Source of the DNA: Pyropia yezoensis
Lineage: Eukaryota; Rhodophyta; Bangiophyceae; Bangiales; Bangiaceae
NCBI GenBank assembly: GCA_009829735.1
Contig: CM020618.1
Span: 26,264,894 to 26,328,893 of the forward strand
Length of the DNA: 64,000 bases
Direction of reading: 5' to 3'
A program made the translations under genes and the position numbers. Below, one piece after another: positions 7,420-50,160 of the stretch. The notes beneath the pieces were generated by a model. That model saw nothing but the letters and a program-made list of their open reading frames with translations. It was not told where the DNA came from and did not search any database. How positions within the stretch are numbered: position 1 is the stretch's first letter; each line of letters starts with the position of its first letter.

Positions 7420-7888
7420 TGTGGCAATAACCACTCGCACACACGGCACCCAAGTTGGGGCGGTGCACAAGGGCTACCTCCCGTGTCTGGGGAACCGGAA
7501 GAAGTGCCAGTCGCACACACTCTATCCCTGTTGTGGGGCAATCTCCCGCCTGACAAACAAGAAGATGGTGTGTGGGCCAACAGTTTCTTGGTCGGGACGG
7601 GGAAGCAAGGCCAAGCCCCGCTGTCCCTCCCCTTATCCCCCCAGGGTACCCTCAGAATCTCGCCACTCAGAATCTCCCACCCCAGCACCTGCCCACCGGG
7701 CCACACGAAAATTCAAGACGATAAATACAGAAAACCCTCAAATCCAAGTTGGATTTACTACTAAGCTAACTATCCCAAACTTAGGGAATATGGACCCAAA
7801 TGCAGGGGGAGGAACAGGTCAGGCTAGTGGCCTGCCGCCCCTTGCATGGGATGTGTTGCCCCCCTACCTGGGGGTCAATACTGCCACA
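7420..7888 (-). mobile_element. Solo LTR of the 11376 Ty3/gypsy family
   Basis: This is a 469-bp reverse-oriented copy of the LTR found at 11376 and 20271, with the same termini TGTGGCA and TGCCACA and the same length. It has visible base changes relative to those two LTRs. It is flanked by TCATG on the left and TCAGG on the right, a 5-bp target duplication with one mismatch. No internal retrotransposon sequence adjoins it, which is the expected product of LTR-LTR recombination. It interrupts the minus-strand ORF cluster. Confidence 0.9.
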
Positions 7889-9593
7889 TCAGGGACAATG
7901 TCCGTACTCTCTGCCACATCTGGCACCATGGTAGTTGAGGCTCCCGCAGCAGTGGACATCGTGCCCGGGCAGAAAAGGGGAGCTGGATGCTTGGCTTGCG
8001 AAGCTGGAGATGGGAGCGGGGGTGTGGGAAGCCGGGCAGGTGGGCCAGGGGACGGCACGTTCGCAGGGAAGAGCACTGCTCCTGGCGTGGGTGTTCAACA
8101 CATGGCACCGGGCTGTGGCCGCCGAAGGGTGGAGGGCAGAGGAGCTCGTCCCAGGATACAGCTTTGTGTGGAGGAAAGCAGCTACTGCATTGCGGATGAA
8201 TCGACGCCTGCAAAGCAAGAGCCCAATCAGAAGCTCCGAACCCACTCGGCTGCGCCCGACTCGCCAGCCCGATCGTGATTGGGAGTGTGCGGGAAGATCT
8301 GAAAAAACCCGCACACGACGAGGCGTGCTTCACAAGTTCAGTTTACTGGGGCTGTGCTTCGACGAACGCATGTGTGCGAGAAAGGTCAAGCCAACTCCCA
8401 TGCTGTGTTCCAGTCACGAAGCAACCCTTGCAGCTAATCATGGTGCTTCATTTCATGATTCCGTGCTTCAAGCACTGTCGTCTAGACAGACCCTCAGAGG
8501 AGCAGAGGCCGCGTCAAATCGAACAGTGCTTCCCGGGACAATGCCCGATACTAACTGTAAGCACACACTGTAATGACGGAGCAAATCACACATCCGGAAA
8601 CCGACGATCCCCGCAGTGTTGACAAACAAGATCTGAGAATCGACCGCCCGAATCGACCACTCTTGCAAACTTCAAGCTATCTTTCGGAAGCCAAGATGGC
8701 GACAACGCCACACACAGGACGCATGGCTAGACGCACATTATCAACAGCTTTCGTTGCGTGCCAAGAAAGTAGGGAACGCCCAACTGGTGCAGTCGATGCG
8801 CCGTGCGTAGCAGATTCGAGCTTGGACGCGGTGATGGTCAAATATCGATCAATTGCCGCCCTGATGACTCAGTTTGATTTGATCCGGGTCGCCTCCGACC
8901 ACTAGCCGAACAGGCCGTCATTTCCGACGCTTATCTCGTGTCCCGGCCGACTTTTAGTCGCTCTCCCCCCTTCCACATGCCCCTTTCCGGCACTCCGGAC
9001 CGCTCTTTCTCTGTCCATGGGTGGTTATACGCATTTCTAAAACCCGGCGCGCGGCTAGAGCCGCCAACGGAGGCGCAACGCGACTCCTCTGCCCCCAACA
9101 ATGACCGGGGGGGGGGGAGGGGGGAAGTGTGCGGCGGGGGAGGGGGGGTACGGAGCTGTCCAGCATGGGTCGATGTCTGGCAATGAAAGACACCACGCGG
9201 ATTCGAGTCTAGACAGGGGAAGAAAGACGGAAGGGGGGGGGCAGCTGAACGGGTGGGGAATCCTCCAAGGCGGGGGGGGGAGAGGAGAAGGCTATAGGTC
9301 GGTGGTCGACCAGGAGTGCTGCACACGTCGAGCGTTGAGGAAAGCGATAGTCGGGGTGGGCAGGAGCAATAGAGCGAGATGATGATGGGAAGGGGGGGGG
9401 AGAGGGGGGGCATTAAGTGCAAAGGTGGTGCGGTGGAGCAAGGTGTGCTACATGGATGTGAGCGAAGAGGACTAGCGAGGTTAATGGCTCTGTGCATCAT
9501 GCAGCGACCAATGGGAGCGCAATGTGCGCGACAAATACAAGAGTTTCGGGGCCGAGGAGGAAAACAGGCGGGCACCCGCTTGAAGTAGCCCCC
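7889..9593. other. No supported gene; purine-rich tract
   Basis: Frames are open on both strands but none shows a domain. From about 9105 to 9410 the plus strand is dominated by G runs, including about 12 consecutive G near 9107, with G-quadruplex potential. A gene fragment displaced by the solo LTR could lie just right of 7888, but I cannot define one. Confidence 0.45.
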
Positions 9594-11375: not shown

Positions 11376-11844
11376 TGTGGCAGTATTGACCCCCAGGTGG
11401 GGGGGCAACACGTGCCATGCAAGGGGCGGCAGGCCACTAGCCTGATCCGTTCCTCCCCCTGCATTTGGGTCCATATTCCCTAAGTTTGGGATAGTTAGCT
11501 TAGTAGTAAATCCAACTTGGATTTGAGGGTTTTCTGCATTTATCGTCTTGAATTTTCGTGTGGCCCGGTGGGCAGGTGCTGGGGTGGGAGATTCTGAGTG
11601 GCGAGATTCTGAGTGGACCCTGGGGGGATAAGGGGAGGGACAGCGGGGCTTGGCCCTGCGTCCCCGTCCCGACCAAGAAACTGTTGGACCACACACCATC
11701 TTCTTGTTTGTCCGTGGGGGGTTTGCCCCACAACAGGGACAGAGTGTGTGCGACTTGCACTTCTTCCGGTTCCCCCGACACGGGAGGCAGCCCTGGCACA
11801 CCGCCCCAACTTGGGTGCCGTGTGTGCTTGTGGTTTTTGCCACA
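11376..11844 (+). repeat. 5' LTR
   Basis: 469 bp, with inverted termini TGTGGCA and TGCCACA. It contains a direct repeat of GAGATTCTGAGTGG near 11588-11616 and a 17-base palindrome at 11508-11524 (arms AAATCC, loop AACTT). Open frames across it are chance shadows repeated in all LTR copies. Confidence 0.95.
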
Positions 11845-11846
11845 TT

Positions 11847-11864
11847 TGGTGGAGCAGCAGGGGA
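11847..11864 (+). other. Primer-binding site
   Basis: TGGTGGAGCAGCAGGGGA begins two bases after the 5' LTR. It would pair with a tRNA 3' end reading CTGCTCC, discriminator A, CCA. The first 11 bases are identical in the old Ty3 element ending at 52511, supporting a conserved primer tRNA. I could not name the tRNA. Confidence 0.7.
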
Positions 11865-11963
11865 CAGAGGTAAACTTTACCTCCGGGTGCACCCGGGTGT
11901 AGGGGGCCCTCTGTCTCAGAGGAACGGTGGTCTTGGACCGTGTCATACGGATCGTCAGCCAAC

Positions 11964-13910
11964 ATGGCTAGCTCGGACCCCCCGTCGTCCGGGGAGTACA
12001 CGGGTGACGCACGTACTTCAGTGCCTTTGAATACTGGTGAGACACAGGTGGGTTTACCTGGGGTCGCAGAGGGACTAGAGGTCCCTCAAGCCAGCAGGAC
12101 TGGAAGTACGGGCGGGCAACAGGCCACCCCGACTCAGTCGGGAGTTCACTCGGGTGACACTTCTGATGTGGGTGGGCCGAAGTCTGGCCACCGCGTGGTA
12201 TACTCAACGGGAACGTCCCAAGGGGTGAGGACTGTCCCCGCGGGTTCCACTCGGGCTGGAGCCAACTTTGGCTTGGAGTCGTCGCCAACTAGGCTTTCGG
12301 AGGACGGTGGACCTCCGTTGGTCGGCGATGGGCTCGCGCCCATGCCCCCGGTTGAGACCCCTGAGGAACGTGGTTACCCCTCAGGTGGACTCCCGGAGGC
12401 GGACCGAGACTCAACTGGAGTCGTCAATCCACTCCTCGCGGAAACTGTCCGTCAGGAGGCGACCAATGTGTTGCGGCAGACTTTGCCGGACCTGGTGGTC
12501 ACGATGACGAATACTATTCTGAATCAGATTGTGGCGAGTTTGCCAGATGGCCTTAATGTCCAGACCGGATTGGGGCTTTCGAGCCCACAGGCGCAGGGGG
12601 AATCCCTCCCCACGCCTATCTCGGGTCGCCCCGAACTGGGGGCGACCCCTGTGACTCCCAACGAGGGAGCCACACCATACGCGGTGGGGCGTACGCCCTT
12701 CACGGGGGAGTTCCCCTCGGAAACGCCGGCGGCTACACCAAGCTCGCCGTACCAGACTACAGGCACTGAGGGTGGACTTACCCCAGTGCCACAGCGGCTG
12801 TTCCCTCAACGTGAGATGCCGCCCAAGATTCAGGTAGCCAACCCGGTCTACCAGCGGATCTTTGACTGTGAGACCTACGCTCTCCACAACAAGTCGGTGG
12901 CGTATGGTCCTGACCAGGCCCGAGCTATGGGCCGTGCCAAGAAGAATGCACTTCATTCTTTTGGGCACAGAGCGGAGTGGGATGGATCTCCCCCCCTCCG
13001 TGTCTTTGAGTTCCTACGTCGTTTCACAAAAGCCTGTGACGACAATGCCATAAGTGAAGGCATGGCTTTTTACATGCTACAGGAGTTTACGAAGGGCGAC
13101 CTACGGACAGAACTTATGTCCGTCATGCCCAGCTCCTCAAGTGGAGGCGCTGGGGAGGTGACGTCCTATTTGGAGCTCGTCAACTGGTTGTTGAGAGCCA
13201 TGGTTGATGAGGCAGCGTTGGCTTCTCAAGTCGAGGAGTTTACGCAAGCCCATCAGGAAGAGGCGGAGGACGAGTTGTCCTTTGCGGAGCGAGTCCGTAA
13301 GCTCAACAATCTTTGTGGGTTTCTTCATCCACAAGCTGTGGTGAAGAGTCGGTTTGTGGAGGGACTCCATTGGTCAGTCCGGATGGAGACCCGGGAGCAT
13401 AACACTGCCCGGGCGACCCTGGCCGAGTTGGCCAGGTTCGCCTATCGCAGAGGCGAGGCCTACCGCAAGTTGCGGGAGGAACAACGCCAGGAGCGCCAGG
13501 CCGAGTTCGCCAAGGAACGGGAGGAGGCGCGCCAGGCCAGAGAGTTGAGAGAGGCACGCCGAATCCGCAAGGAGAGGGTGGTAGCTGCCGTGGGAACTTC
13601 CCAGGGTACCTCTTCGTCTTCCCCAGTTGGGAAGACCCCTCCGGGAACTGACCATCGGTGTTGGAACTGCAACTCCGATGGACACTGGGCATATGACTGC
13701 CCCAAGTTGAGTAATCGCATCCAACAACTTGTTAGGAATGCGAGTAAGAAGTCGGCTACGAGCGAAGTACGTTCACGCCGCGAGGGTGGGTCTCGACCGG
13801 TCGTCTCGGTCGCCACACCCTCGGCGGAGGAGGCGGACACGTCGTCCTCGGACTCGTCGTCTTCCTCCCCGCCCTCAGATTTGGACGCCAAGTCGGCGGG
13901 AAACGAATGA
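11964..13910 (+). CDS. Gag polyprotein
   Basis: Structural protein that packages the retrotransposon RNA. The first ATG in frame is at 11964 and gives 648 residues; an open extension reaches a GTG at 11940. The first 290 residues are Ser/Thr/Gly/Pro-rich. A capsid-like region follows (MGRAKKNALHSFGHRAEWDG onward), then an Arg/Glu-rich helix (EEQRQERQAEFAKEREEA). One CCHC zinc knuckle, CWNCNSDGHWAYDC, lies at about residues 566-579. The tail is acidic and Ser-rich. The stop TGA overlaps the pol start as ATGA. Several perfect hairpins are embedded in the coding sequence, the longest at 12623-12648. Confidence 0.9.
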   Translation: MASSDPPSSGEYTGDARTSVPLNTGETQVGLPGVAEGLEVPQASRTGSTGGQQATPTQSGVHSGDTSDVGGPKSGHRVVYSTGTSQGVRTVPAGSTRAGANFGLESSPTRLSEDGGPPLVGDGLAPMPPVETPEERGYPSGGLPEADRDSTGVVNPLLAETVRQEATNVLRQTLPDLVVTMTNTILNQIVASLPDGLNVQTGLGLSSPQAQGESLPTPISGRPELGATPVTPNEGATPYAVGRTPFTGEFPSETPAATPSSPYQTTGTEGGLTPVPQRLFPQREMPPKIQVANPVYQRIFDCETYALHNKSVAYGPDQARAMGRAKKNALHSFGHRAEWDGSPPLRVFEFLRRFTKACDDNAISEGMAFYMLQEFTKGDLRTELMSVMPSSSSGGAGEVTSYLELVNWLLRAMVDEAALASQVEEFTQAHQEEAEDELSFAERVRKLNNLCGFLHPQAVVKSRFVEGLHWSVRMETREHNTARATLAELARFAYRRGEAYRKLREEQRQERQAEFAKEREEARQARELREARRIRKERVVAAVGTSQGTSSSSPVGKTPPGTDHRCWNCNSDGHWAYDCPKLSNRIQQLVRNASKKSATSEVRSRREGGSRPVVSVATPSAEEADTSSSDSSSSSPPSDLDAKSAGNE

Positions 13911-16417
13911 CCGTTGGGGCTGGTCGTCCGAAGCTCACAACGGCAGCCTCGGCCAAGTGGGCCAGGAGGACGAACCAACCGTGCCGGATACTGCGGCGAC
14001 CTAAGGGAGTCCGCCCACCTCGGGTAGGACTCCCCAAGAACGTAAACCCACGTCGGGTCATCGCGGTGCTGACGGGTGAGAACTTCCAGGTGGCTGGACG
14101 GGTGCAACTTGCCCCCGGCCGCGCCTGTTGTGCCCGTATCGTGCTTGATACCGGGTCAGGAGCCTCCTTGATACGCAAGTCGCTATTACCAAAGGAGGTA
14201 AAGCTCCAACGCTGGAGGTCCAAGGCTGACCATATGATTGACATCAATGGTGGGGTACTTCCCATCGTTGGTGCCGTGACCCTACCAACTAGGTTGGGGA
14301 CCCATGAGGTCGACGTGACCTATGGTGTAGTTGAGAATATATCGGTACCCCTGCTTCTGGGTACCCCTTATGTCGTAACACAAGTGCCTTTGATCTGTGG
14401 CCCCGAGTACTGGGTCAAGTTGATGAATGGGGAGACTATCCCCATCCTTGGTAAGGGAAAGTCTGTGGCTCCTGTGACAGTCTCACAGTCGAAGCCTGTT
14501 TGCTCTGTGAGGGAAGGGTTTACTGCTACCCTGCGTTTAGCCCGCAAAGTCACGTTGCCCCCCAACTCGGTGGCGCACGTTGACGTTGTAACTGATTTTT
14601 CGGGGAACGGGTTGGTGCACCCTAACCCCCGTCTTGCTCGCAAGCACCAAGTGCATGTTGCCCTTGGCACGATGGACTCCAAAGCCGGAGTCCCGTGGAG
14701 GATCCAGGTGATGAACCTGAGTCCGACGCCCAAGTACTTCAAGTCGGGAGCCAAGTTCGGCTATATCGACCAACATGAGGGACCGGTAGTAGCGGTCACC
14801 CTCAACGCGGGCGCAAGTAGCGACCCGAAGTCCGGAAAGGAGAAGCATCAAGCCAAGTCGGCCACCTCTCCTCGGCCCCATGTGAACATGGAGGGTGTTC
14901 CCCCCAGGTTGAGGGTTCAAGTTGAACGCCTCTTGGACCAATATCACAAGCTGTGGGATGGTCAATTGGGACTCATGAGAGCCACCCAACACCGGATCGA
15001 GTTGAAGCCCGGTGCACCCCCTATACGCCAACAACCGTATAGGGGAGGACCTCGTTCAAGGGCCCTCGTTAAGGAGCAAGTTGCTCGCATGGAGGCCCTC
15101 GATGTGATCGAGGCCAGCAACGCCGAGTGGGCGAGTCCGGTGGTTATCGTCCCCAAAGTTGATGGGACCCCCCGGTTTTGTATCGACTACCGTAAGCTCA
15201 ACGAGAGCACGGTGAAGGACAGTTATCCCCTACCTAGGATGGATGACTGTCTGGACTCTCTGGGGGAGGCAAACGTGTTCTCTACCCTGGACTGTAACGC
15301 GGGGTACTGGCAAATTCCCATTGCCCCGGAGGACAGGCATAAAACTACCTTTACCTGTCACTGTGGTACCTACCAGTGCAAGCGTCTACCCTTTGGTCTG
15401 TGTAACACGCCGGCAACTTTCCAGCGCGCTATGGACATGATTCTGGCCGGAGTACGGTGGCAGATCTGTCTTGTGTACCTAGACGATATCATTGTGTTCT
15501 CCCGAAGTCCGGAGGAACACATTGGCCATCTTGGCCAGGTGTTCAAGCTACTTGCTGACGCCGGTGTGTCACTGAAGGCGAGTAAGTGCCACCTCTTCAC
15601 TCAAGAGGTGGAGTACTTGGGACATGTTGTCCGTCCGGGGCGTCTCAGTGTTAACGAGAAGAACTTGAGGGCCATACGTAAGGCTCAGTACCCCCGGACC
15701 CAGACCCAGATGAGGAGCTTCCTCGGGATGTGTAACGTGTACCGACGTTTCACCAAGGGCTTCGCCAAGGTGGCGAAGCCGTTGAATGAGCTAGTGAGCT
15801 CAACGCTACCGAAGAACCTGCCTCCCCCAAGTCGGGTGGAGCAGGAATCCTTTGAGACTCTTCGGGACCTTCTGCTGAAGCCCCCCATCTTGGCAATTCC
15901 CAGGTTGGGAGGCCACTACATCCTGGATGTGGACGCTAGCTACGACCAACTTGGTTGTGTGTTGCTTCAGCAGCAGCCGGACAAGGAGTACTTGCCGGTG
16001 GGATACTTTAGTAAGGGGCTGAACTCGGCCGAGAAGAACTACGGAGTCACCGAGTTGGAAGGACTCGCAGTGGTGTGGGCGGTGACGTCACTTCGTCACT
16101 ACCTGGAGGGTGAGAAGTTCCTCATCCGCTGTGACCACCGCGCGTTGCAGTTCATCTTTAAGACGGACTGTACGAACACTCGTCTCAACCGGTGGAGGGT
16201 GCGACTGGCACCCTTCAACTTTGACATTGAGTACCGACCTGGCAGGCAACATGCCCTTGCCGACGGCCTCTCTCGGGTACCTACCGAGGGGCTGGACACT
16301 AACCCAGTCGATGAGGACATCCCCATTGTGGGGGTAGTCACGCGCTCGGGTCAGGCGTTAACCCCGAGGCGCCAGGGAACAAGAAGTACTTGCCCCTGTC
16401 CCTGGACGAGGTGGTGA
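13907..16417 (+). CDS. Pol: protease, reverse transcriptase, RNase H
   Basis: Copies the element RNA into DNA. The aspartic protease motif VLDTGSGASLI lies around residue 80. Reverse transcriptase has DYRKLNESTVKDSYPLPRMD, LDCNAGYWQI, LPFGLCNTPATFQRAMD and the catalytic YLDD at 15476-15487. RNase H has LDVDASYDQLGCVL and ends near RQHALADGLSRVP. The ORF starts at an ATG overlapping the gag stop (ATGA), so translation could be coupled by termination-reinitiation. After about 16330 the conserved frame moves by -1 into integrase, and the last residues of this ORF (about RRQGTRSTCPCPWTRW) are out-of-frame sequence. No inactivating change is seen in the catalytic motifs. Confidence 0.93.
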   Translation: MTVGAGRPKLTTAASAKWARRTNQPCRILRRPKGVRPPRVGLPKNVNPRRVIAVLTGENFQVAGRVQLAPGRACCARIVLDTGSGASLIRKSLLPKEVKLQRWRSKADHMIDINGGVLPIVGAVTLPTRLGTHEVDVTYGVVENISVPLLLGTPYVVTQVPLICGPEYWVKLMNGETIPILGKGKSVAPVTVSQSKPVCSVREGFTATLRLARKVTLPPNSVAHVDVVTDFSGNGLVHPNPRLARKHQVHVALGTMDSKAGVPWRIQVMNLSPTPKYFKSGAKFGYIDQHEGPVVAVTLNAGASSDPKSGKEKHQAKSATSPRPHVNMEGVPPRLRVQVERLLDQYHKLWDGQLGLMRATQHRIELKPGAPPIRQQPYRGGPRSRALVKEQVARMEALDVIEASNAEWASPVVIVPKVDGTPRFCIDYRKLNESTVKDSYPLPRMDDCLDSLGEANVFSTLDCNAGYWQIPIAPEDRHKTTFTCHCGTYQCKRLPFGLCNTPATFQRAMDMILAGVRWQICLVYLDDIIVFSRSPEEHIGHLGQVFKLLADAGVSLKASKCHLFTQEVEYLGHVVRPGRLSVNEKNLRAIRKAQYPRTQTQMRSFLGMCNVYRRFTKGFAKVAKPLNELVSSTLPKNLPPPSRVEQESFETLRDLLLKPPILAIPRLGGHYILDVDASYDQLGCVLLQQQPDKEYLPVGYFSKGLNSAEKNYGVTELEGLAVVWAVTSLRHYLEGEKFLIRCDHRALQFIFKTDCTNTRLNRWRVRLAPFNFDIEYRPGRQHALADGLSRVPTEGLDTNPVDEDIPIVGVVTRSGQALTPRRQGTRSTCPCPWTRW

Positions 16418-17889
16418 AGGCCCAGGCCGAGGATCCCTTCTGCAAGTCGCAGAGGGATATGCTGGATACGGTGGTTGAGACGCGCTTCTTTCTGGGAGAC
16501 GATGGCCTCCTCATGAGGAGGGGGGTATTCCAGGGGACCGAACAACTTGTCGTCCCCGCATCCCTCAAGGACAGTATCCTTGAGAGGGAGCACAACGCTC
16601 CCACGGGTGGACACCTGGGGTCTAGTAAACTGTACAAGACCCTGAGGACCAGGTACTACTGGCCGTCCATGGTGGTGGACATCTACAGTTGGGTGGCTGC
16701 CTGCACAAGTTGTGCACAGAATCGTCTGATGGAACGGCGGCCTAGTACGGCTATGCTATTGTTCCCGGCCAAGGAGCCCTTCGCCGCGTTGGCGATGGAC
16801 ATCCTTGGGCCACTGCCCGTGACCGAGGAGGGCAACCAGTACCTCCTGGTCATCTGTGACCGCTTCACGAAACTTACGCGAGCGATCCCACTGGCAGAGA
16901 TCACGGCCATGTCGGTCGTGTCAGCCTTCCTAGATCACTGGGTTGCCGCGTATGGCATCCCAGATAGTACACTATCGGACAATGGACCGCAATTTGCGTC
17001 TGTACTGTTTCAGGGAAAGCTGGATATGTTGGGGGTTAAGGCAAACTATGCCACCCCCTACCACCCACAAACTAATGGGCAGGTGGAGCGCTTCAACAAA
17101 ACTATTGTTAGGCAGCTGCGCCACTATGTGAGTGAGCACGTGAAGACGTGGGACCAATATATTTCTATCCTTACTACTGCCTACAATTCGCAGGTTCACT
17201 CATCTACAGGGGAAGTACCCCTCGCTTTTGTGACCCCCCGTCGCGTGCGGTCTATTGCCGTACGGCGGTCGCTCCCAACTAGGGAGGATGGTGGCAGCAC
17301 GCCTACTCCTACTGAGAGTAAGGCGGAGTTCGCCGCTAGGCTTGAAAACCTCATCCCTAAAGTCAGGGCTGAGATGGACAAAGCACAAAAGCGCTACAAG
17401 CGTACTTTTGACAAAAAGGTGCGCAATGCTAAACATGTCCCCGAGCAGGGTGACTGGGTGCTGGTACACTCGCACACCCCAACTGGGGGTAAGCTGGTAT
17501 TCCAGACGAAGGGACCGTACCAGGTTCTTCGTACTGATGGGCGGCGCTTCACCATCGAAAGTGACGATGGGGTCCGCACAGTGAACGGACAGGACGTGGT
17601 CAAAGTTGCACCACCGCCTGCAGGCGACCCAGCTTGGGCACGTGCGTTGGAGTCGTGGCGCCTCCCCTCACTGCCTGCGGCCAAACAGGGCCCGCAGGAG
17701 TACGTGTTCGATAAGTTCATCGACCACGGATGGAATGAAAACACTGACCGCCTCATGTTGAGGGTGCGTTGGTTTGGCTACAAAGCCAAGGACGATACAT
17801 GGGAGTATGTGGAGGACCTTCCTGCTGAGAAGGTCCGGGCGTACTGTGCCCGGAATGAGATAGACCCTAACAGCCCTCCCTCAACGTGA
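16330..17889 (+). CDS. Integrase with C-terminal chromodomain
   Basis: Inserts the cDNA into the genome. The HHCC zinc-binding N-terminus includes EHNAPTGGHLGSSK and CTSCAQ. The catalytic core has D in MAMDILGPLP, D in LSDNGPQFAS and E in TNGQVERFNK, the D,D-35-E arrangement. The chromodomain near the end reads EYVFDKFIDHGWNEN through RWFGYKAKDDTWEYVEDL and would guide insertion to marked chromatin. The reading frame is -1 relative to RT and is open from upstream of 16381 (KKYLPLSLDEVV). It could therefore be reached by a -1 shift at the G5 run 16330-16334, or the split could be a one-base mutation. Confidence 0.92.
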   Translation, partial: GGSHALGSGVNPEAPGNKKYLPLSLDEVVKAQAEDPFCKSQRDMLDTVVETRFFLGDDGLLMRRGVFQGTEQLVVPASLKDSILEREHNAPTGGHLGSSKLYKTLRTRYYWPSMVVDIYSWVAACTSCAQNRLMERRPSTAMLLFPAKEPFAALAMDILGPLPVTEEGNQYLLVICDRFTKLTRAIPLAEITAMSVVSAFLDHWVAAYGIPDSTLSDNGPQFASVLFQGKLDMLGVKANYATPYHPQTNGQVERFNKTIVRQLRHYVSEHVKTWDQYISILTTAYNSQVHSSTGEVPLAFVTPRRVRSIAVRRSLPTREDGGSTPTPTESKAEFAARLENLIPKVRAEMDKAQKRYKRTFDKKVRNAKHVPEQGDWVLVHSHTPTGGKLVFQTKGPYQVLRTDGRRFTIESDDGVRTVNGQDVVKVAPPPAGDPAWARALESWRLPSLPAAKQGPQEYVFDKFIDHGWNENTDRLMLRVRWFGYKAKDDTWEYVEDLPAEKVRAYCARNEIDPNSPPST

Positions 17890-18000
17890 GAGAAGGCCGA
17901 GCAACAGTGCCACGAGAGTGCTTCAAGTCGAAGTGGTACGCAGAGTGGCTTTTAACTACAGCCCTAACCCTCACACTCTCACAACAAAGGCAGCTGCCAA

Positions 18001-19932
18001 CTAGGCACGCATGCTAGACTTCCCCACTCCACGGCCCTCGCCCTCACGTGGAGGCGAGCGGCGAGACCCACGCCGATAACGGTCTCCACTCGTTGGAGGG
18101 GGCGGCGGCTCCAAGTCGGAACCGTCGCGCCCCTCACGGTCGCGCAAGTGGCGCCGACCGTGGCCACTCTTCTGCCTGGTCTTGCGCGCAAGTTTGCGAC
18201 GCAGACGCTGGACAGACTCCGTCTCCGACGGGGTAGAGGACTCCGAGACGGAGTAAGACAACTCGTCTTCCGACACGGAGGGAGAGCGCCGAGAGTGTCG
18301 GCGACGACGGCGAGGAGGCGAGTATGCCCGGCTCGCGCGACGTTTGCCACGCCCAAGTGGGGCTGGCTGGGGCATAATAGCCCCAATGCGAGCCAACTCG
18401 GCTGTCATAAACTCCGCCTCCGACTCGCAACTCGCGGTCGCCACTGCAGTACGAACGCGCTCCTCAAGTTGAGGAGTCTCGGAACTCTGTAGGGTTGCGG
18501 TCGACGCGGCCAACCAGGAAATGGTGCGCACCAACGTGGTGATCATCATCTCTGAGGTTAGAGGCGTGGGCGGCAACACCAACTTGGGGTATACCGTCAG
18601 GAGGGTGGCCCCCAAGTTGGGGGACACCGGGGTGGAAGACTCCACGGCCACGCTGATCGGGATGATTCCGTGAGGTTGGAAAGGAACAGGAGGAAGCGGA
18701 GGGGCCCGCCGAGGTGGCGGTACCCGGGTGTAACTGCGACCCCGACTTGGGGCCCCCGCAGTGGGTTGAGTCATATGGTCATCATAGGACGGCACGGCCA
18801 TAACTATGGGCTTGTCCGGGGGTGGCGCAGTGTGGCGATCCACCCCCGGGGCATACGGGTAGTCCCCGATGCCCAACCCCTCTCGTAGGACCACACGGCC
18901 GTCGTGAAGTTCACGAGCGACCCACACGAACTGGCGAAGTGCGCCATCGTCCTTGGGCCCACGAGTGGGGCGGCGCAACTTGTGCTCAATGCTCTCCCAC
19001 TCGATAAACTTATGGAGCCGGAGCATCTCCTCAAGTAGAGTGAGTTGTCCTGATGAGCACCGCTCAGCAACTAGCTGAGGGGTGAGCTGTTCCAAACCCT
19101 GGATGAGCCGGAGGGGGAGATGCCAGAGCATCCCCCGCCGCTGAACACAGGACACCCAGGTCGACATGACCTCGAGGAGCCACTGGGTGGCCAACATGGC
19201 CCACACCAGGTGATCAGGGGCAGCCGTCAACATGACGGAGCGGAAGTGGTCAAGCAACCGGGGCAACAACGCCGGGAACCCGTAGGGGACCTCAACTTGA
19301 GGCCACCACTCGGGCTTCTTCGGATAGTACTGCTCCTTACTGGCAGCAGACTGTTGAGGAAACTCAAGTTGAGCCGAGGTCACCAAGTAGGGACCTCGCC
19401 GGAAGTCTTTCTCCATCCGCACATCAAAGTGATGAGTGTGCGGATCGGCCTCGTGGAGGTACGGTGGGCGAGTTGCCACAGCGTCCCACGTGAAGGTCGG
19501 CAAGACGCCGGGACCCGGGATAGTTCCCCCGCGGTCCACCATAGCCTTGGCACGTTGGACGTCTTCAACCTCCTCGTCGTCCAGGAAGGCAAGCTGGTCC
19601 GTCCTGAAGCCGGCCGGGAACCCGACCCTACGGGGATACTTCTCCCGTAGGCGGTCCCATACCCGGCCCATCGCTGCGCCAAGTCGGCCACAGCGAAGAA
19701 CAGTCAACCCCTCCTCATAAAGAGGCCAAGCGGGGTAAAACCACCGCCCCAAGGCCTCACGCGGGACAACTTGTCCCGCCTCCGGGGGAGACCCCGCCGT
19801 CAACCCAAAGCCGGGTGACGCGGGAGTCCCATCCCCCGGAGCGATCGCGGAAGTCCCGGCGGGTGCTGCACCGTAGGAGGTGTCCTCCATGCGCTCGTCA
19901 AGAGAGTCCGTTTCCACTCCCGGAGTCGCCAT
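18001..19932 (-). CDS. Large antisense ORF, unknown function, Arg/Ser-rich tail
   Basis: An ORF of 643 residues from ATG at 19932; the frame stays open up to 20103. It lies opposite gag-pol between integrase and the 3' LTR, where some Ty3 elements carry an extra gene. The centre is ordered-looking and Trp/Leu-rich (FYPAWPLYEEGLTVLRCGRL, EWWPQVEVPYGFPALLPRLL, LVWAMLATQWLLEVM). The C-terminus is rich in Arg-Ser, Arg-Arg and acidic Ser runs (SPPRRRRRHSRRSPSVSEDE), resembling SR-type RNA-binding tails. I do not recognise the family. The 3' LTR in reverse could supply a promoter. Hairpins with N-A-S-T-N loops are especially dense here, about one per 50-150 bp. Length and lack of stops make chance openness unlikely. 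Confidence 0.7.
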   Translation of the reverse strand: MATPGVETDSLDERMEDTSYGAAPAGTSAIAPGDGTPASPGFGLTAGSPPEAGQVVPREALGRWFYPAWPLYEEGLTVLRCGRLGAAMGRVWDRLREKYPRRVGFPAGFRTDQLAFLDDEEVEDVQRAKAMVDRGGTIPGPGVLPTFTWDAVATRPPYLHEADPHTHHFDVRMEKDFRRGPYLVTSAQLEFPQQSAASKEQYYPKKPEWWPQVEVPYGFPALLPRLLDHFRSVMLTAAPDHLVWAMLATQWLLEVMSTWVSCVQRRGMLWHLPLRLIQGLEQLTPQLVAERCSSGQLTLLEEMLRLHKFIEWESIEHKLRRPTRGPKDDGALRQFVWVARELHDGRVVLREGLGIGDYPYAPGVDRHTAPPPDKPIVMAVPSYDDHMTQPTAGAPSRGRSYTRVPPPRRAPPLPPVPFQPHGIIPISVAVESSTPVSPNLGATLLTVYPKLVLPPTPLTSEMMITTLVRTISWLAASTATLQSSETPQLEERVRTAVATASCESEAEFMTAELARIGAIMPQPAPLGRGKRRASRAYSPPRRRRRHSRRSPSVSEDELSYSVSESSTPSETESVQRLRRKLARKTRQKSGHGRRHLRDREGRDGSDLEPPPPPTSGDRYRRGSRRSPPREGEGRGVGKSSMRA

Positions 19933-20257
19933 GGCTCTCCCCAAGTTGGGGGGAGACGCTCTGGCTATCGCAGCACGAGACCCGCCTCGAGTTGAGGGGG
20001 ACTCGGATCGTGGGTATACGGGTGGCCTCCCCAGCGTGGGGCGGCCCAGTGGAAGGTGAAGGGGAGGTGGTGGTGATGGTGAAGTGTGAACTGAGGAGAG
20101 CAAGCTGCCGAGTGGGCAAGCTTGAGGAGAGGGGCGGTCAACGTGACCGCCTCCACATCCGTGTTACGTACTCGATGGGGGACAGCAAGTCGCGCCCCCA
20201 ACGCCGAGACGTGCGTTTACGCACCCCCTCACAGGGCCGACAGGGTCGGTCGGAACT

Positions 20258-20270
20258 GAGGAGAGGGGAG
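20258..20270 (+). other. Polypurine tract
   Basis: GAGGAGAGGGGAG directly precedes the 3' LTR at the position of the plus-strand primer in LTR retrotransposons. Confidence 0.8.
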
Positions 20271-20739
20271 TGTGGCAGTATTGACCCCCAGGTAGGGGGG
20301 CAACACGTGCCATGCAAGGGGCGGCAGGCCACTAGCCTGATCCGTTCCTCCCCCTGCATTTGGGTCCATATTCCCTAAGTTTGGGATAGTTAGCTTAGTA
20401 GTAAATCCAACTTGGATTTGAGGGTTTTCTGCATTTATCGTCTTGAATTTTCGTGTGGCCCGGTGGGCAGGTGCTGGGGTGGGAGATTCTGAGTGGCGAG
20501 ATTCTGAGTGGACCCTGGGGGGATAAGGGGAGGGACAGCGGGGCTTGGCCCTGCGTCCCCGTCCCGACCAAGAAACTGTTGGACCACACACCATCTTCTT
20601 GTTTGTCCGTGGGGGGTTTGCCCCACAACAGGGACAGAGTGTGTGCGACTTGCACTTCTTCCGGTTCCCCCGACACGGGAGGCAGCCCTGGCACACCGCC
20701 CCAACTTGGGTGCCGTGTGTGCTTGTGGTTTTTGCCACA
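20271..20739 (+). repeat. 3' LTR
   Basis: 469 bp, matching the 5' LTR except for one visible substitution near its 24th base. It is followed by the target duplication GTTAG. Confidence 0.95.
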
Positions 20740-40928: not shown

Positions 40929-43828
40929 GTGTCCATTCTACTTAGAGGATGATATGATCCGATTCGGATCATACGATCCTCGTTTTTGGCCACGTTTTCT
41001 CGACGGCTGGGGTGTCTGCTGAGCTTTTTGACAGCAGAATCGGACTCAGCCCAGTCTCTTTACAGTGCGTACGCGATTATGTCCAGGAGTGTCCCCAAGA
41101 AGTAGCCCGCTTCTGTACCGCACCGTTCGGAGCCGGTACAGTACTGTTCCGACGTGATGTACAATCAAGTACTGCGACTTGGCATTTGGCGAGGAGAATC
41201 GTGATTGTAATGGTACAAAGTACAAGAACGTCTCTCATGACTTGGGCAGGAACAGTGCAGAGGGGGCGGCGGACAGAGGACGCGGACCGCGGCTGCGACA
41301 GGAAGGATAGCCGTGAGGGAGGAGAGTGAAGGAGAGAGGGGGGACGAAAGGTGCGGGGAACGGGAGGGCGGTGGATGAGGATGGTTGCAGACCAAACCTC
41401 TTTTGGGCAGACGGAGTGTACGGGGACCGCTGAGGTTCTGGTAGGCAGCTGGATGAAGCGACGCGGACGGGAGTGGCCAGGCCCGTGGAACATGTATCTG
41501 GAGATGTAAGTGCTGTCCCGGCAAGCGTACTAAAAGAGCAATAAAAGGGTATGGGAACGGCTCACTCGTCCTCCAGCTCCCCGTTCAGAACCATATCTTC
41601 TGTCTCGTCAATCGTACCCACGTCGTTCTCAGCATTCATCCACCGCTGTGCCGCGCGCACGCGGCCGGGCGCGTCCACTCCCACAAACTCGTCCGCCTGC
41701 GAGGCGTTGGCCATCATGGCTACAGTACCTGAGACGTCCATATGGGCGTTATCAAACGCAGTTACGATGCCGAGGACCAGCCGGCGTACTTCAGCCTCGG
41801 CCACGTCCGGCAGTACGTTGGCCTTAAGCCAGCAGTTGGCCAGCTGAGCCGCCGGCACAATTGCCCACTCTTACTTGGTAATCTTGGCTGCGTCGCCCGG
41901 GTGAGCCTGGACGCCAACATCTAGACCCCCGCGGCGTGGGACACGAGGCGGCGGAGCCCCCGAGGCCACCAACCCGTCGAAGATTTGTACCACGCGCTGC
42001 AGCAGCCTAAACTTGTACCGTCGCTTAACAGCACCAATCACACTTGCGTCTAGCCGCTGGTACACAGCTGTGGTGTAAGGTGAGAGCTCAATCAATGTCA
42101 CCTGGGGGTCGACAATGTAAGAATGACACGCCAGGTTGTCCATAATGAGGTAGACGTGAGAGCCCGTCCGAGTCCGTGTGGACGGCCGGAAAACTTCTTG
42201 AAACCAGCGCTTGAAGACTCTTGCATCTGTCCAAGCGAACTTCTGGCAGAAGTACGGCAATGGGCACTGGTTCGAAGCCCCGACGAAGCACATCGGCTGC
42301 ATCGCCTTGCCAATAATGGCTATTGGATGCATGTGCGACCCTGTAGCATTGCAGCACAGAGTTAAGGTGACCCTATCCTTACTATTCATGGCCTTGGAGC
42401 CCCTTGCCTCTCGACGGTCCTCCCCAGGAACGTAGGACCGCGAAGGCAATCCACGGCACAGGAGGCCCGTTTCATCTACATCGTAAATGAGGTCGGGGTC
42501 AACTCCCGCCAACTGCCTACGAATGTCTGCCATTCTTGCCGCCGCCTCTTCCACATTGGCCGAAGCTCCACACCCGTGGAGCGCCACGCTTGTCCAACCG
42601 TGCCGCCGAGCCCAGTTCTGCGAAAAACCACATGAAGCCGAGAAGTTTGTAACGCCTAGTGCTGACGCAATCTGAAGCGCCTTCGCCCGAAGAATGGCGA
42701 GCGAGAGAGGGACGCGCTTGTGACCCCGGGCCCGCACAGCAAAGGACCACGCGGCCAACCGGGCGTCGACCTCCGAGAACGCGCCGGTCCCAGACAACAC
42801 GGCGTCCAGTGATGAACCTGCGGCCGCTCGCGCGCGCAGGGCAGCGCCGCTTGCCGGCCGTCTTCCACTGGATGACCTGCAGATTAGTGTCCAGGCTCAT
42901 AGGCGTTCGCCTCCGTCGAGCACCGGCCACTCTTCTTGCGGGCGCCCGAGATGAGAAAGGTGACGAGAGCACAGCGTGGGCTGATACCGCCGCCGCCCGA
43001 GCTGCTGCCCGGATGCCCGATGACCATTCAGGACTGGCGTGAGGATGTGTCACGGAAATGGACGCCTCCGCAGCGGCGGCTGCTGCTTCCACGGCGGTCG
43101 CGATCCGTCGAGGCATGTCACCATCCGTGGTGGCCAGGGGCGGTGGCACAGCTCCCGCTGTGGCTGACGGCGAGGCAACTCCTCCGGGAAGACCATGAGA
43201 TTGCGGGCGATTGCCTGGGTGCGGGGGCAAATCGGGGCTTGGGTGAGGGTTTGGGTGGGGGGGCGAATCGGCAGGGGGGGGGGGGAGCGCGAAGCGGCGG
43301 GGGGGCGTGGGGGGGAGGGGGAAGTCATACCAACATCCACGAAAAGTGAAGCGCAAGCAGTGTAACAGCACCGACGTATTACACTACTAAAGTGAAGCGG
43401 CGTGGTCTTGGAAGGCAGTCGCGAGACGGTCAAGGACAACGCGGTACAGTTTCGCGCGAGAGAAGCGGTCCACGACGATGGCGCCCGGGTCGTCGCCGAC
43501 TTCTCGGCCGTGGCCCACCGCCGCCAGGCGATGCCTTGGTCGCTCTCCCAGGATGTCATGTAAGTGCTGCAACTTTTGTGCAATGCCTCAGAAGATGGTC
43601 AGAGAAGTACACTATTGGCAATTCGCGGTACAATGCTGAGGAGCTCTCTCGTGCGTTGTTCGGCTCGTTTATATCCAGGGGTGGATACAAACGAGCCCGA
43701 TCTGATCGCGTACGCTCTGTACCCTTACGATTTCGTATCAACGGATGCTGGAATTGACGATTCCGTGAAAGGATCCTATGAACCCTTTGGGAGGATCAGA
43801 TGATCCTCCGACGAAGTAGAATAGATAC
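40929..43828 (-). mobile_element. pogo/Tigger-like DNA transposon
   Basis: The ends are 15-bp imperfect inverted repeats, GTGTCCATTCTACTT on the left (40929-40943) and the complement of GTATCTATTCTACTT on the right (43814-43828); 13 of 15 bases agree. Subterminal palindromes built on GATCC lie at 40953-40973 and 43790-43809. A minus-strand DDE transposase occupies the middle. A G-rich tract (43275-43322) lies upstream of the transposase. One end abuts TA and the other TT, so the target duplication is not clean. Confidence 0.75.
41562..42900 (-). pseudogene. Tigger/pogo transposase (CENP-B HTH plus DDE_1)
   Basis: ATG at 42900 opens a psq-like helix (MSLDTNLQVIQWKTAGKRR). A frameshift near 42840-42855 leads into the main frame. 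It then shows a CENP-B-type helix-turn-helix (DARLAAWSFAVRARGHKRVP, NFSASCGFSQNWARRHGW) and the DDE_1 catalytic core: D in IYDVDETGLLC, VTLTLCCNATGSH, D in YLIMDNLACHS, and the third D in VYQRLDASVIGAVKRRY (usually QPLD). The frame ends with an in-frame TAA at 41873-41871. It continues without a shift to EDMVLNGELEDE at 41562. The TAA lies in AAGTAAGAG, which resembles a splice donor, but no convincing intron follows. Probably recently inactivated. Confidence 0.8.
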
Positions 43829-47640: not shown

Positions 47641-49154
47641 ATGACTAAGTTACGTGGCCAGTTCTCGACCGGCTCCCACGTGTCATCTTTCGCTATATAA
47701 TCATACTATCGAACCGTGAATTCGTAAGAATCGCCGCACTTGCGGTGGCGCAAAAGTTTGTCAATGACGTATTCGTCCTGGGCGACGGGTTGCGGTCGTT
47801 GTTTGTCAAACCCATCAAGTACCGGGTGCGGGACGTTACCCTTGGCGTCAGCAGGTCTTGGTGCTGGTGTGGCGTGGTCGCTGTTGATGCGTTTCTCACT
47901 CCCGTCAATGTCAATGACAAAGGTAGATTCGTCGGCATCAACGACGATGAACGACCCAATGGCCTCACGATCCAGCTTGTTAGCTCGTTGATGGTTTGTC
48001 GTGTAGAAGTAGTCGCCAATGTTGATCTTGTCATTCCGTTTACCCAGGTTGGCGTCGAAGTTGCGTTTGTAACGTTGTTGCGTCATGCGCAAGGCCTCGA
48101 CAACGGCGGGGATCTGCACTCGCAGTCTGGCCATGAATTCGCGCTTGCGCGCGAGGGGGGAGCCATCGCTCAGTGTACCCCGAGGCTCAATATATGTGCC
48201 CGGTGGCAAGTTGCGAAGCGAAAGGTTGGGTACTCGTCGAGAAATGACGAGCTTGAATGTGGCAATGCCCGTTGACCGAAGGGGTTTGCTGTTATAAGCC
48301 AATGTGAGGATCGGCAGGAGCTCGTCCCAACGTGTGGGGTCTTCAGTCACATAGTGGCGTAGTTGAGTTGCAATGGTACGATTCCACCTTTCAACTTGAC
48401 TGTTGGTCTGTGGATGGTACGCCGTAGTACGGATCGTCTCGATCCCAAGTACCTTCATGACCGCGATGAAGATGTTCGACATGAACTGAGGCCCTTAGTG
48501 CGACAGAGTTTTGTCAGGCGGTCCGTTACAGGAAACCCAGTGGTCAATGACGGCTGAGGCTACTGAAATAGCCGTGATGGTCTTGAGTGCAATGCACTTG
48601 GTCAGCTTCGCGAATCTGTCGGTAATGACAAGTATGAAGCGGTTTCTGCTTTTGGTGGGCGGCAATGGCCCAAAAATATAAATCGATATGTCCGTCAACG
48701 GTTCCGTTGCGGGGAAGAGCGTCGGCGGCGTAGTGTGTCGCCGGAGTGCGAGTCGGATCTGCGCACAAGACGTGCATTTGGTAATAATACCGTGGATGTC
48801 CGTAATCATGGACGGCCTGTAGAACTTGGTTCTCATCGTGCAATACATCTTGTTCATGCCCGGGTAGGCAGACACTGTGGAGTGGTGTTGGAGAGCCAAG
48901 ATCTTGCCTTGTTGACTCTGGGGAATAACCAACTGATTTCCGGATTGAGTTCGGCGGTAGAGGGCGTGGTGGTCGTCGAGGAAGAACGACTTAACCGTCC
49001 CCTTGGCAATGTTATCCTTTGTGGATATACAGAAGTCATCTGACTGCTGTTCCTCAATAACGTTTTGGAAGTCAACGGGCGTGGGGTCTGCCGTCCCAGT
49101 GTACCGTTTTGTCATAACTCCTTGTGCTGTTTCGGCGATGACTAGACATGGCAT
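47640..49154 (-). pseudogene. Dead integrase and chromodomain
   Basis: The zinc region keeps CTSCAQ but its GGH histidine is lost (VSAYPGMNK). The first catalytic Asp of the DILGPLP motif is missing (IYIFGPLP). The second site reads LSH-stop-GPQF instead of LSDNGPQF: both the Asp and the following Asn codon are gone, at about 48495-48503. The third-Glu segment survives (TNSQVERWNRTI). The chromodomain is split between CGDSYEFTV and KDDTWEPVENW by a frameshift near 47700. Confidence 0.85.
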
Positions 49155-49244
49155 GTCATCTTTGATGACGTCTGACGATGCGTTGCTGTACGCACGTGAC
49201 AGGAAGTCTGGGAGGTGGTGACTGGCACCCGGCTTATACTTCAG

Positions 49245-50160
49245 TTAAAAGTCGAACTCGGCGAGTCGCATACGCCAACGCATGAGGCAGCCACTGGAGT
49301 CCGCGGTGCTGTAAATCCAGGTAAGGCTTTCATTATCCGATCCGATGATGAAGTATTGTCCTTCCAGGAAGTGTCTCAACTTAAGCACCGCACACACGAT
49401 GCCAAGGCATTCTCTTTCCGTAGTGGAGTAGTTGAGTTCGGCCGGGTCCAGAGCCCGGCTCCAATTACCAAGTAATTGAGGTTTACCTTGATCGTCGTTT
49501 TGCAAGAGTGTGCACCCAAGCTGATACGCGTTCGCGTCAACATCGACTGTTAACTCGCGGCCGGCTTTTGGTACAGCAAGGATGGGTGGGTGGATGAGCG
49601 CGTCGCGCAGGTCCTCAAATGCCGTTTGGGCTTCCTGCGTTGGGGGAGGGAGGTCGGGTGGGACCTTTTTCTTGCTCATTGCGTTGAGCGGTCACGCTCT
49701 CTTAGTGATGACGATGACAAATCGTCGATAGACATTGTACATTCTTGAAAAGCTTTTCATTTGCGTCTTTGTCTTAGGGAATGTGGCATTGCGCAGTGCT
49801 TCGGTGTTCTTGTTGAGAACGTGTACTTTACCAGGGGTAATCGTGTGTCCGAGGTTCACCTCGCTAGTGAATCACTTGCATTTCTCAAGGTTGAGAGTGA
49901 CGCCAACCTCTCGTAGGCGAGTGAGTACCTGGTCAACATCTTTGGTGTGTTGAGCGGCTGTTGCCGAGAAGATGATGACGTCGTCAAGGTACATAAGGCA
50001 GATTTGCCATTTAAATCCGGATAGGATGATATGGAGCGCACGCTGGAAGGTAGCGGGTGCGTTGGTCAGGCCGAAGTGAATTGTAGTCCAGTCGAAGATG
50101 CCGTAGTGCGTTGTGAAGGCAGTCCTCTCTTGATCCTCCTTCCTGAGGTCCTGGATTCGG
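49245..50160 (-). pseudogene. Truncated reverse transcriptase and RNase H
   Basis: RT starts abruptly near EDQERTAFTTHYG, then HFGLTNAPATFQRAL and the catalytic YLDD with VIIFS (about 49970-50000). There is a stop after LNLEKCK near 49870. RNase H survives in 49679-49245 (LTVDVDANAYQLGCTLLQ, ECLGIVCAVLKLRHFLEG). The protease and RT fingers are absent; gag runs straight into RT at about 50160. Confidence 0.85.

Follow-up and report, generated by a model that had tools for sequence, protein, structure and literature searches.

Introduction

Several RNA viruses and hepatitis B virus (HBV) fit the Stockley-Twarock model of dispersed packaging signals, in which many stem-loops along the genome have variable stems and share a short loop motif. 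In the reported HBV signals this motif is RGAG (PMC7612645), and dispersed signals have also been described in parechovirus (PMC5431903) and satellite tobacco necrosis virus (STNV; PMC3593212). Among long terminal repeat (LTR) retrotransposons, Ty1 RNA has been reported to form kissing loops between SL1a and SL3a (PMC5454406), and the plant Ty3-type elements Retand, Grande and RIRE2 to carry an antisense open reading frame (ORF) between pol and the 3' LTR (PMC11963269). Here we analyse a Ty3-type LTR retrotransposon (positions 11376..20739, + strand) in a 64-kb stretch of the genome of the red alga Pyropia yezoensis, hereafter the window. The element has paired LTRs, a flanking duplication and reverse transcriptase (RT), RNaseH and integrase domains. 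Like the dispersed packaging signals, it has many stem-loops whose stems vary and whose loops share a short motif, and it resembles retroviral and Ty1 dimerisation in that its hairpin loops are complementary and would be able to pair between RNAs (PMC5454406).

We find that these hairpins far exceed what composition or coding would produce, that a related family carries its own set at other sites, and that polymorphism among copies indicates selection on the stems. As a possible function we tentatively put forward an assembly code borne by the element RNA.

Results

An excess of hairpins sharing one loop class

We treated each A[G/C]T trinucleotide (AST) as a potential loop centre and called a hairpin strong if at least 4 of 5 positions at distances 3-7 from the centre formed Watson-Crick pairs. 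With both LTRs counted, 81 of the 328 AST centres in the element carried strong hairpins, compared with ~6.5 expected when the arms of different sites were compared. Leaving out the second LTR gave 76 non-redundant strong hairpins (about 75), or 8.5 per kb over 8.9 kb, spread across the LTR, gag, pol and an antisense gene described below. Among all 64 centre triplets, AGT (43/158 strong) and ACT (33/156) stood out, compared with 194/8566 for all remaining triplets. Expressed for five-base loops, 24% of AST centres were strong versus 2.3% of all other centres together, and AAT and ATT centres combined reached only 3/75.

Each hairpin consists of ~4-6 Watson-Crick pairs below a five-base loop of the class R-A-S-T-N. 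Pairing was near-obligate at distances 3-6 and sparser beyond, a profile that the definition of a strong hairpin, based on distances 3-7, itself favours. The loop is taken as five bases because its first and last bases (N1 and N5) pair no more than chance (A-T at 19 hairpins, 19 expected). N1 was A or G in 66 of the 76 hairpins (A in 50, G in 16), and the closing pair was C-G in 44.

When stems of at least five pairs were counted by loop length, 52 had loops of length 5 (dinucleotide-shuffle mean 11.5; rest of the window, length-scaled, 19.0), and ACT or AGT formed the centre in 30 of these. Loops of 3 and 7 gave 41 and 37 such stems, and those of 4 and 6 gave 21 and 24, close to the 24.2 and 19.2 of the remaining window. 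Some longer loops were raised as well: loops of 14 bases had 28 stems and loops of 16 bases had 31, about 2.4-2.7 times the shuffle mean of ~11.6 (rest of the window 15.8 and 17.6).

A first-pass annotation of the sequence had estimated that fewer than one perfect hairpin with an NASTN loop and a stem of at least five pairs would arise by chance, and had argued that coding alone could not account for the set. Both statements were borne out. The element holds 30 such hairpins (28 without the second LTR), whereas 500 base shuffles had a mean of 0.26 and a maximum of 3. With 1000 synonymous-codon shuffles for each of four frames, the observed number of strong hairpins was never reached: gag (19 observed; mean 2.3, max 8), protease-RT-RNaseH (17; mean 2.3, max 8), integrase (13; mean 1.6, max 6) and the antisense ORF (18; mean 2.3, max 7). 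Summed over these frames, hairpin centres fell on the three codon phases 22, 21 and 24 times. Nothing spoke for the alternative that composition or coding produces the hairpins as a statistical artefact. None of the base, dinucleotide and codon-preserving nulls comes near the counts, nor does arm-swapping, and a second family shows the same enrichment, which leaves this explanation with practically no weight. The enrichment is confirmed and is stronger than the annotation had stated.

A sister family keeps the density and not the sites

A sister Ty3 family in the same genome (59-63% protein identity), which we reached via the protein relative P0006, carried 63 strong hairpins at 351 AST centres: 26/171 in pol (L092), 19/94 in a 3' piece (L093) and 18/86 in a 5' piece (L094). 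The last two pieces overlap in a 246-bp LTR repeat that contains no strong hairpin. In 1000 codon shuffles the sister pol gave a mean of 2.9 and a maximum of 9 (26 observed), and its antisense ORF a mean of 2.5 and a maximum of 8 (13 observed). Hairpin density was 6.4 per kb, versus 8.5 in the window element. Loop types in this family clustered by region, with G-type to C-type ratios of 7:19 in pol, 14:4 in gag and 12:7 in the 3' region.

Individual sites were seldom shared. Of 30 hairpins in the window pol, 24 could be mapped to the sister family, where the AST was kept at 12 and the hairpin was still strong at 4; conservation at the same places, which is expected of dispersed packaging signals, was therefore not observed. 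Weak AST sites of the window element kept the AST in 34 of 107 cases and were strong in 3, and the 26 sister hairpins mapped back onto an AST in 7 cases and a strong hairpin in 4. At two of the four sites strong in both families (15600 and 16709) the loop centre had switched between G and C: the hairpin at 15589..15611 (stem CCACCTCTT, loop CACTC) has a TAGTA loop in the sister family, and that at 16702..16716 (TGCAC, loop AAGTT) has a GACTT loop. The hairpin at 14427..14445 (ATGGGGA, loop GACTA) also has a homologous hairpin there. With hairpins of this class present at similar density in the sister family, but mostly at places of their own, the density is kept and the sites turn over. The first-pass annotation had singled out stem decay without compensation among family members as the outcome that would speak against its hairpins. 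The outcome was mixed: changed stems at individual sites showed no compensation, either between the families or in a 94% identical copy considered in the Discussion, but the sister family has a similar density of the class.

The hairpin class is sparse in other sampled parts of the genome

We next looked at hairpins outside these two families. The rest of the window showed no AST excess, with a pairing fraction of 0.25-0.27 at distances 3-8. The comparison of element and genome that the annotation had called for gave hardly any signal, if any, in 5 of 6 random 10-kb stretches, which held 3-5 strong hairpins each compared with ~2-4 expected; their sum (21, with ~15 expected) allows a faint genome background. 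The sixth stretch (L080) held 67 compared with 7.1 expected, and contains an older copy of the same family. Copia loci L071-L078 gave no clear signal (0-3 per locus, ~1 expected), the near-identical counts of L071-L073 looking like repeats of one element. Nor was there a clear signal in seven Ty3 fragments of other families (2/47, 1/48, 0/47, 0/44, 2/41, 3/50 and 0/47 strong), which represent fewer than seven families: L087 and L091 are 99% identical with L088 90% identical to both, and L085 and L090 are 99% identical with L086 83% identical to both. The two distant copies L085 (2/47) and L090 (3/50) show a slight excess over the ~0.9 expected for each, which may be chance. The nearest hairpin-free group (L087, L088 and L091; 56-58% protein identity over RT) gave 0/47, 0/44 and 0/47, and a second, decayed Ty3-like region of the window with an integrase zinc finger and a zinc knuckle (47706-50845, - strand) gave 0/140 over 46.5-51.5 kb.

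Outside hairpins, AST was no commoner in the element than in the hairpin-free group (26.5 versus 26.1 per kb), which indicates that the loop matters only on a stem. A host-wide or transposon-wide process is rejected by the five random stretches, the Copia loci and the other Ty3 groups. The element's own integration sites are likewise rejected as an explanation, the target duplications being AST-centred in 0 of 12 copies and the insertion flanks of these copies showing weak symmetry only (38/96 pairs at distances 2-9). No Rfam family matched up to an E-value of 1, and a search of viral and prokaryote contigs returned no relatives. Among the elements sampled, the class thus appears confined to this family and one relative.

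Stems are depleted of shared polymorphisms

To ask whether hairpins are maintained, we aligned 25 copies over 5.5 kb and computed expected polymorphism by codon position, requiring the reference copy to carry the major allele and repeating the test with each of the 25 copies as reference. Private changes are mostly post-insertion, while shared changes have been carried through transposition. Stems contained 5 shared polymorphisms compared with 13.1 expected (P 0.010), and 2 compared with 8.7 at third codon positions (P 0.008), whereas private polymorphisms matched expectation (24 versus 24.7). The core AST bases behaved similarly (shared 1 versus 4.5, P 0.06; private 10 versus 8.5), and averaging over all 25 references gave 4.1 versus 10.8 shared and 24.2 versus 25.0 private. 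An earlier count with hairpins defined on the window copy (5 versus 15.1 shared) was possibly biased. Depletion that affects shared and not private changes points to selection while the element was active; given the small numbers and the incomplete independence of shared sites, this is good rather than final evidence. The result indicates that the hairpins were kept by selection at the nucleic-acid level during transposition.

Strand and loop-type patterns

The annotation had pointed out that the loop class is its own complement, which holds and provides the main clue to function. The two complementary centres are used near-equally, with 43 AGT and 33 ACT in the window element and 33 and 30 in the sister family. 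Folded in 141-nt context, the hairpins formed with a mean probability of 0.71, versus 0.42 for non-AST stems of at least 4 pairs, and real flanks folded better than shuffled flanks on both strands. Fold probability showed no strand difference and was discarded as a strand test.

N1 was a purine in 66/76 hairpins versus 111/194 weak sites, and the pyrimidine bias at N5 was slight (42/76 versus 94/194). Classed jointly, both bases were purines (RR) in 29 hairpins and both pyrimidines (YY) in 5, with 52 and 35 in the background (Fisher P 0.009). The N1 purine asymmetry is a hint that the + strand is read. We also considered tolerance of G-U pairs as proof of an RNA role and rejected it, as the counts of G-U against A-C conflict: 8 versus 9 within stems, 7 versus 9 in stem changes among the 25 copies, and 12 versus 4 in those that separate the window copy from L080. 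Along the window element, G-type and C-type loops tended to alternate (48 runs, 38.3 expected, one-sided P 0.015).

Positions of the hairpins and organisation of the element

All 14 hairpins listed in the first-pass annotation proved base-exact. Besides the three given above, these are, on the + strand (stem, loop), CCTGGCC, GAGTT at 13418..13436; GTCTTCCC, CAGTT at 13616..13636; CTGTGA, CAGTC at 14472..14488; AGGGTGC, GACTG at 16196..16214; TCTGC, AAGTC at 16439..16453; ACCCC, AACTG at 17476..17490; CGCCGA, GAGTG at 18287..18303; CTCCTC, AAGTT at 18460..18476; TGGCG, AAGTG at 18932..18946; CTCAGC, AACTA at 19063..19079; and GCGGGAC, AACTT at 19761..19779. A further hairpin, CTCAAGGA, CAGTA at 16564..16584, was absent from that list.

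The 5' LTR (11376..11844, +) carries five strong hairpins, centred at 11437, 11484, 11516, 11744 and 11754, and the 3' LTR (20271..20739, +) carries the same five, at 20332-20649. Between the LTRs, strong centres lie at 11875, 11996, 12182, 12415, 12445, 12481, 12710, 12951, 13054, 13113, 13141, 13230, 13274, 13427, 13469, 13597, 13626, 13728, 13767, 13892, 13957, 14108, 14289, 14436, 14480, 14566, 14789, 14817, 14921, 15080, 15127, 15600, 15831, 15950, 15988, 16205, 16386, 16446, 16574, 16630, 16709, 17046, 17102, 17215, 17279, 17312, 17328, 17483, 17561, 17844, 17927, 18001, 18115, 18148, 18262, 18295, 18357, 18397, 18468, 18583, 18616, 18746, 18862, 18909, 18939, 19071, 19296, 19770, 19945, 19991 and 20112.

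The LTRs are 469 bp each, differ at 1 position and have the termini TGTGG...CCACA, with the TG start and CA end of Ty3-type elements; a 5-bp target duplication (GTTAG) flanks the element. The gag frame (11940..13910, +) has a zinc knuckle (PF00098) and 19 strong hairpins. It is followed by an RT-RNaseH frame (13907..16417, +; PF00078, PF17917 and PF17919; 17 strong hairpins), within which the protease region is assumed by position and has no Pfam match, and by an integrase frame (16390..17889, +; PF17921 and PF00665; 13 strong hairpins), whose end is chromodomain-like (PF00385 at 20.1 bits, below the Pfam cut-off of 25.1). The Pfam domain order RT-RNaseH-integrase with an H2C2 zinc finger makes the element Ty3-type (Metaviridae). 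In the window copy pol is split into two overlapping ORFs, and a single open frame of 1380 aa was found in 33 of 54 listed copies.

The family is large and young: of 6612 candidates 54 were scored, and these best copies are at 97-100% protein identity. The older copy in L080 shares 94% identity with that of the window, and the 40 best places among 1496 candidates match a piece of L080 at 97-100%, pointing to a second large subfamily. In 20 other copies tried, both ends were located in 14, of which 12 had matching 5-bp flanks. Some copies lie next to or within one another. Near 13365139 and 13366626 of C2 in G000, the copies L010 and L008 are adjacent in opposite orientation with their target duplications (ACGTC and GTGGC) swapped, pointing to a recombination or inversion event that involved both, and LTRs of the same family are nested inside element copies at L026:4152-4620 and L027:4152-4620, with a 5-bp duplication (GTCCC) seen in L026. 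The window also holds an LTR-sized relic (7420-7892, -) that is ~93-94% identical to the L080 LTRs and in which AST hairpins are still visible at 7748, 7780 and 7827, together with fragments of two DDE transposases, one at 41871-42800 (-; DDE_1 and a weak Tc5-type HTH match) and one at 56464-57600 (-; Plant_tran/DDE_Tnp_4).

A conserved antisense gene

A conserved antisense ORF (18001..20103, - strand; 700 aa from a TTG) with 18 strong hairpins occupies the part of the element that separates integrase from the 3' LTR; the first ATG common to its relatives is at ~19932. The frame was stop-free in 57 of the 64 best copies (best of 15516 candidates, a choice biased towards intact copies). Between the window copy and L080 its dN/dS was 0.23, with 0.30 for gag, 0.19 for protease-RT-RNaseH and 0.16 for integrase. 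This orphan gene is under purifying selection, and two further Ty3 families of the same genome have homologues of it. The sister family has one of them (36% over 288 aa, E 2.9e-43). The other, a diverged homologue (23%, E 1.9e-8), lies downstream of L091; the family there is free of hairpins (L095: 2/49), which means that the antisense gene alone does not predict hairpins and rules out its product as their sole determinant.

The tail of the antisense protein is rich in arginine and serine. Searches with about 8000 candidates scored each, from 5.8 billion proteins, listed P0125 as the sole relative; the best match among solved structures had an E of 0.45, and structure prediction from 2 sequences reached a mean pLDDT of 32.6. 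In place and orientation the gene resembles the extra gene of Retand, Grande and RIRE2 (PMC11963269). It differs in having no Pfam match, whereas 97% of Retand clusters are reported to carry a TRP28 domain (PMC11963269), and the available part of that source does not mention a hairpin class in those elements.

Discussion

Among the roles named in the first-pass annotation, RNA packaging, dimerisation or protein binding would fit these observations best. We tentatively favour a reading in which the hairpins of the full-length element RNA would constitute one multivalent assembly code, acting through loop-loop kissing, Gag binding or both; we infer the mechanism from the form of the loops. Any G-type (AGU) loop could pair with any C-type (ACU) loop in the same RNA or a partner RNA. 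By themselves or through recognition by Gag, these contacts would lead to compaction or dimerisation of the RNA and label it for packaging. The reading is favoured because AGU and ACU loops are complementary. Loop-loop pairing requires a closed G/C degeneracy with near-equal use, and the strand symmetry finds a simple explanation if loops pair, since a code in which all meet all must be closed under reverse complement. The alternation of the two loop types along the window element fits such a code. Folding in context, the N1 asymmetry and the 12 G-U against 4 A-C changes relative to L080 speak for a role in RNA. Single hairpins could be lost and gained, because under this proposal only the number of sites matters. 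A bolder version, which we regard as doubtful, has the element RNA behaving as a self-sticking polymer in which dozens of AGU/ACU pentaloops, sharing one universal code, would make exchangeable kissing contacts within and between copies, and families would keep the density of code words and not their sites.

Several observations weigh against the assembly-code proposal. Paired changes between the window element and the sister family show no excess, and in the comparison with L080 none of the 28 changed pairs had changed on both sides. Minus-strand folding equals plus-strand folding, and G-U pairs are no better tolerated than A-C mismatches either within stems or among the 25 copies. The loop asymmetry weakens under other hairpin definitions (P 0.06 and 0.04), resembles background when counted as A/T (P 0.13) and is absent from the sister family (RR 14, YY 11). 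Alternation of G- and C-type loops is likewise missing there, the two types being grouped by region, and neighbouring loops have no more extra complementarity than distant ones.

In order of decreasing likelihood we place pairing between loops first, recognition of the RNA by a protein second and a role in DNA third. In the second of these, a single RNA-binding protein, either Gag or the arginine-rich antisense protein, would read the sites much like dispersed packaging signals and no loops would pair. The shared loop, variable stem, whole-length spread and site turnover fit such signals, for which dispersed loop motifs have been described in HBV (PMC7612645), and the zinc knuckle of Gag and the arginine/serine-rich tail of the antisense protein offer candidate readers. 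For a protein that reads a single strand it would, however, be chemically odd to take either G or C in the middle of the loop and almost never A or T, and the hairpin-free family has an antisense homologue, so that we consider this explanation rather unlikely. A role in DNA, either in single-stranded cDNA during reverse transcription or as cruciforms read on both strands by, for example, integrase, a host resolvase or a methylation system, would account for a loop class closed under reverse complement, for the lack of G-U tolerance within stems, for equal folding of both strands and for the exchange of G and C centres at 15600 and 16709. Hairpins this short are commonplace in RNA, but stems of 4-6 pairs with five-base loops are not expected to extrude from duplex DNA. 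This argues against such a role, as do the absence of AST-centred insertion sites and, weakly, the N1 purine asymmetry, and we judge it distinctly unlikely.

Two further explanations seem very improbable to us. Quasi-palindrome correction is a known process and retroelement replication is prone to template switching, so that imperfect palindromes could be perfected by mutation alone. Such a process should have no preference for AST loop centres and should not spare the Copia loci and other sampled Ty3 groups of the same genome, nor does it sit with stems depleted of shared and not private polymorphisms or with listed stem variants among copies that are mostly single-base. We give as little credence to the idea that RNA structure on a genome scale protects the element from RNA silencing by its host, with the shared loop being incidental. 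Structure runs along the whole RNA, as in the genome-scale ordered RNA structure (GORS) described for RNA viruses (PMC7642675, PMC3950689), and some hairpins with loops of 14 and 16 are also raised; the shield leaves without explanation why one loop class stands out from all other centres. To return to the favoured assembly code, the idea of dispersed assembly signals is directly testable, because silent removal of loops should act in proportion to the number removed.

The element presents a dense, distributed nucleic-acid code that is visible in sequence and readable from the genome alone. It occurs in two related families, and we did not see it in the closest further group that was sampled. 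Literature searches aimed at the hairpin pattern itself found nothing on point. It departs from dispersed packaging signals in several ways: an LTR retrotransposon carries it, ~75 hairpins that do not tolerate G-U are packed into 8.9 kb, their loop class is its own reverse complement, and the sites turn over between families. Like GORS, its structure is distributed through coding sequence. A shared loop sequence is, to our knowledge, no part of what defines GORS, whereas in the window element the loop defines the class. In Ty1, the kissing contact is reported to involve two loops near the 5' end (PMC5454406); here any of ~43 G-type loops could meet any of ~33 C-type loops along the whole RNA and, if loop-loop pairing is true, a retroelement would be gathering and condensing its own RNA by an unfamiliar route.

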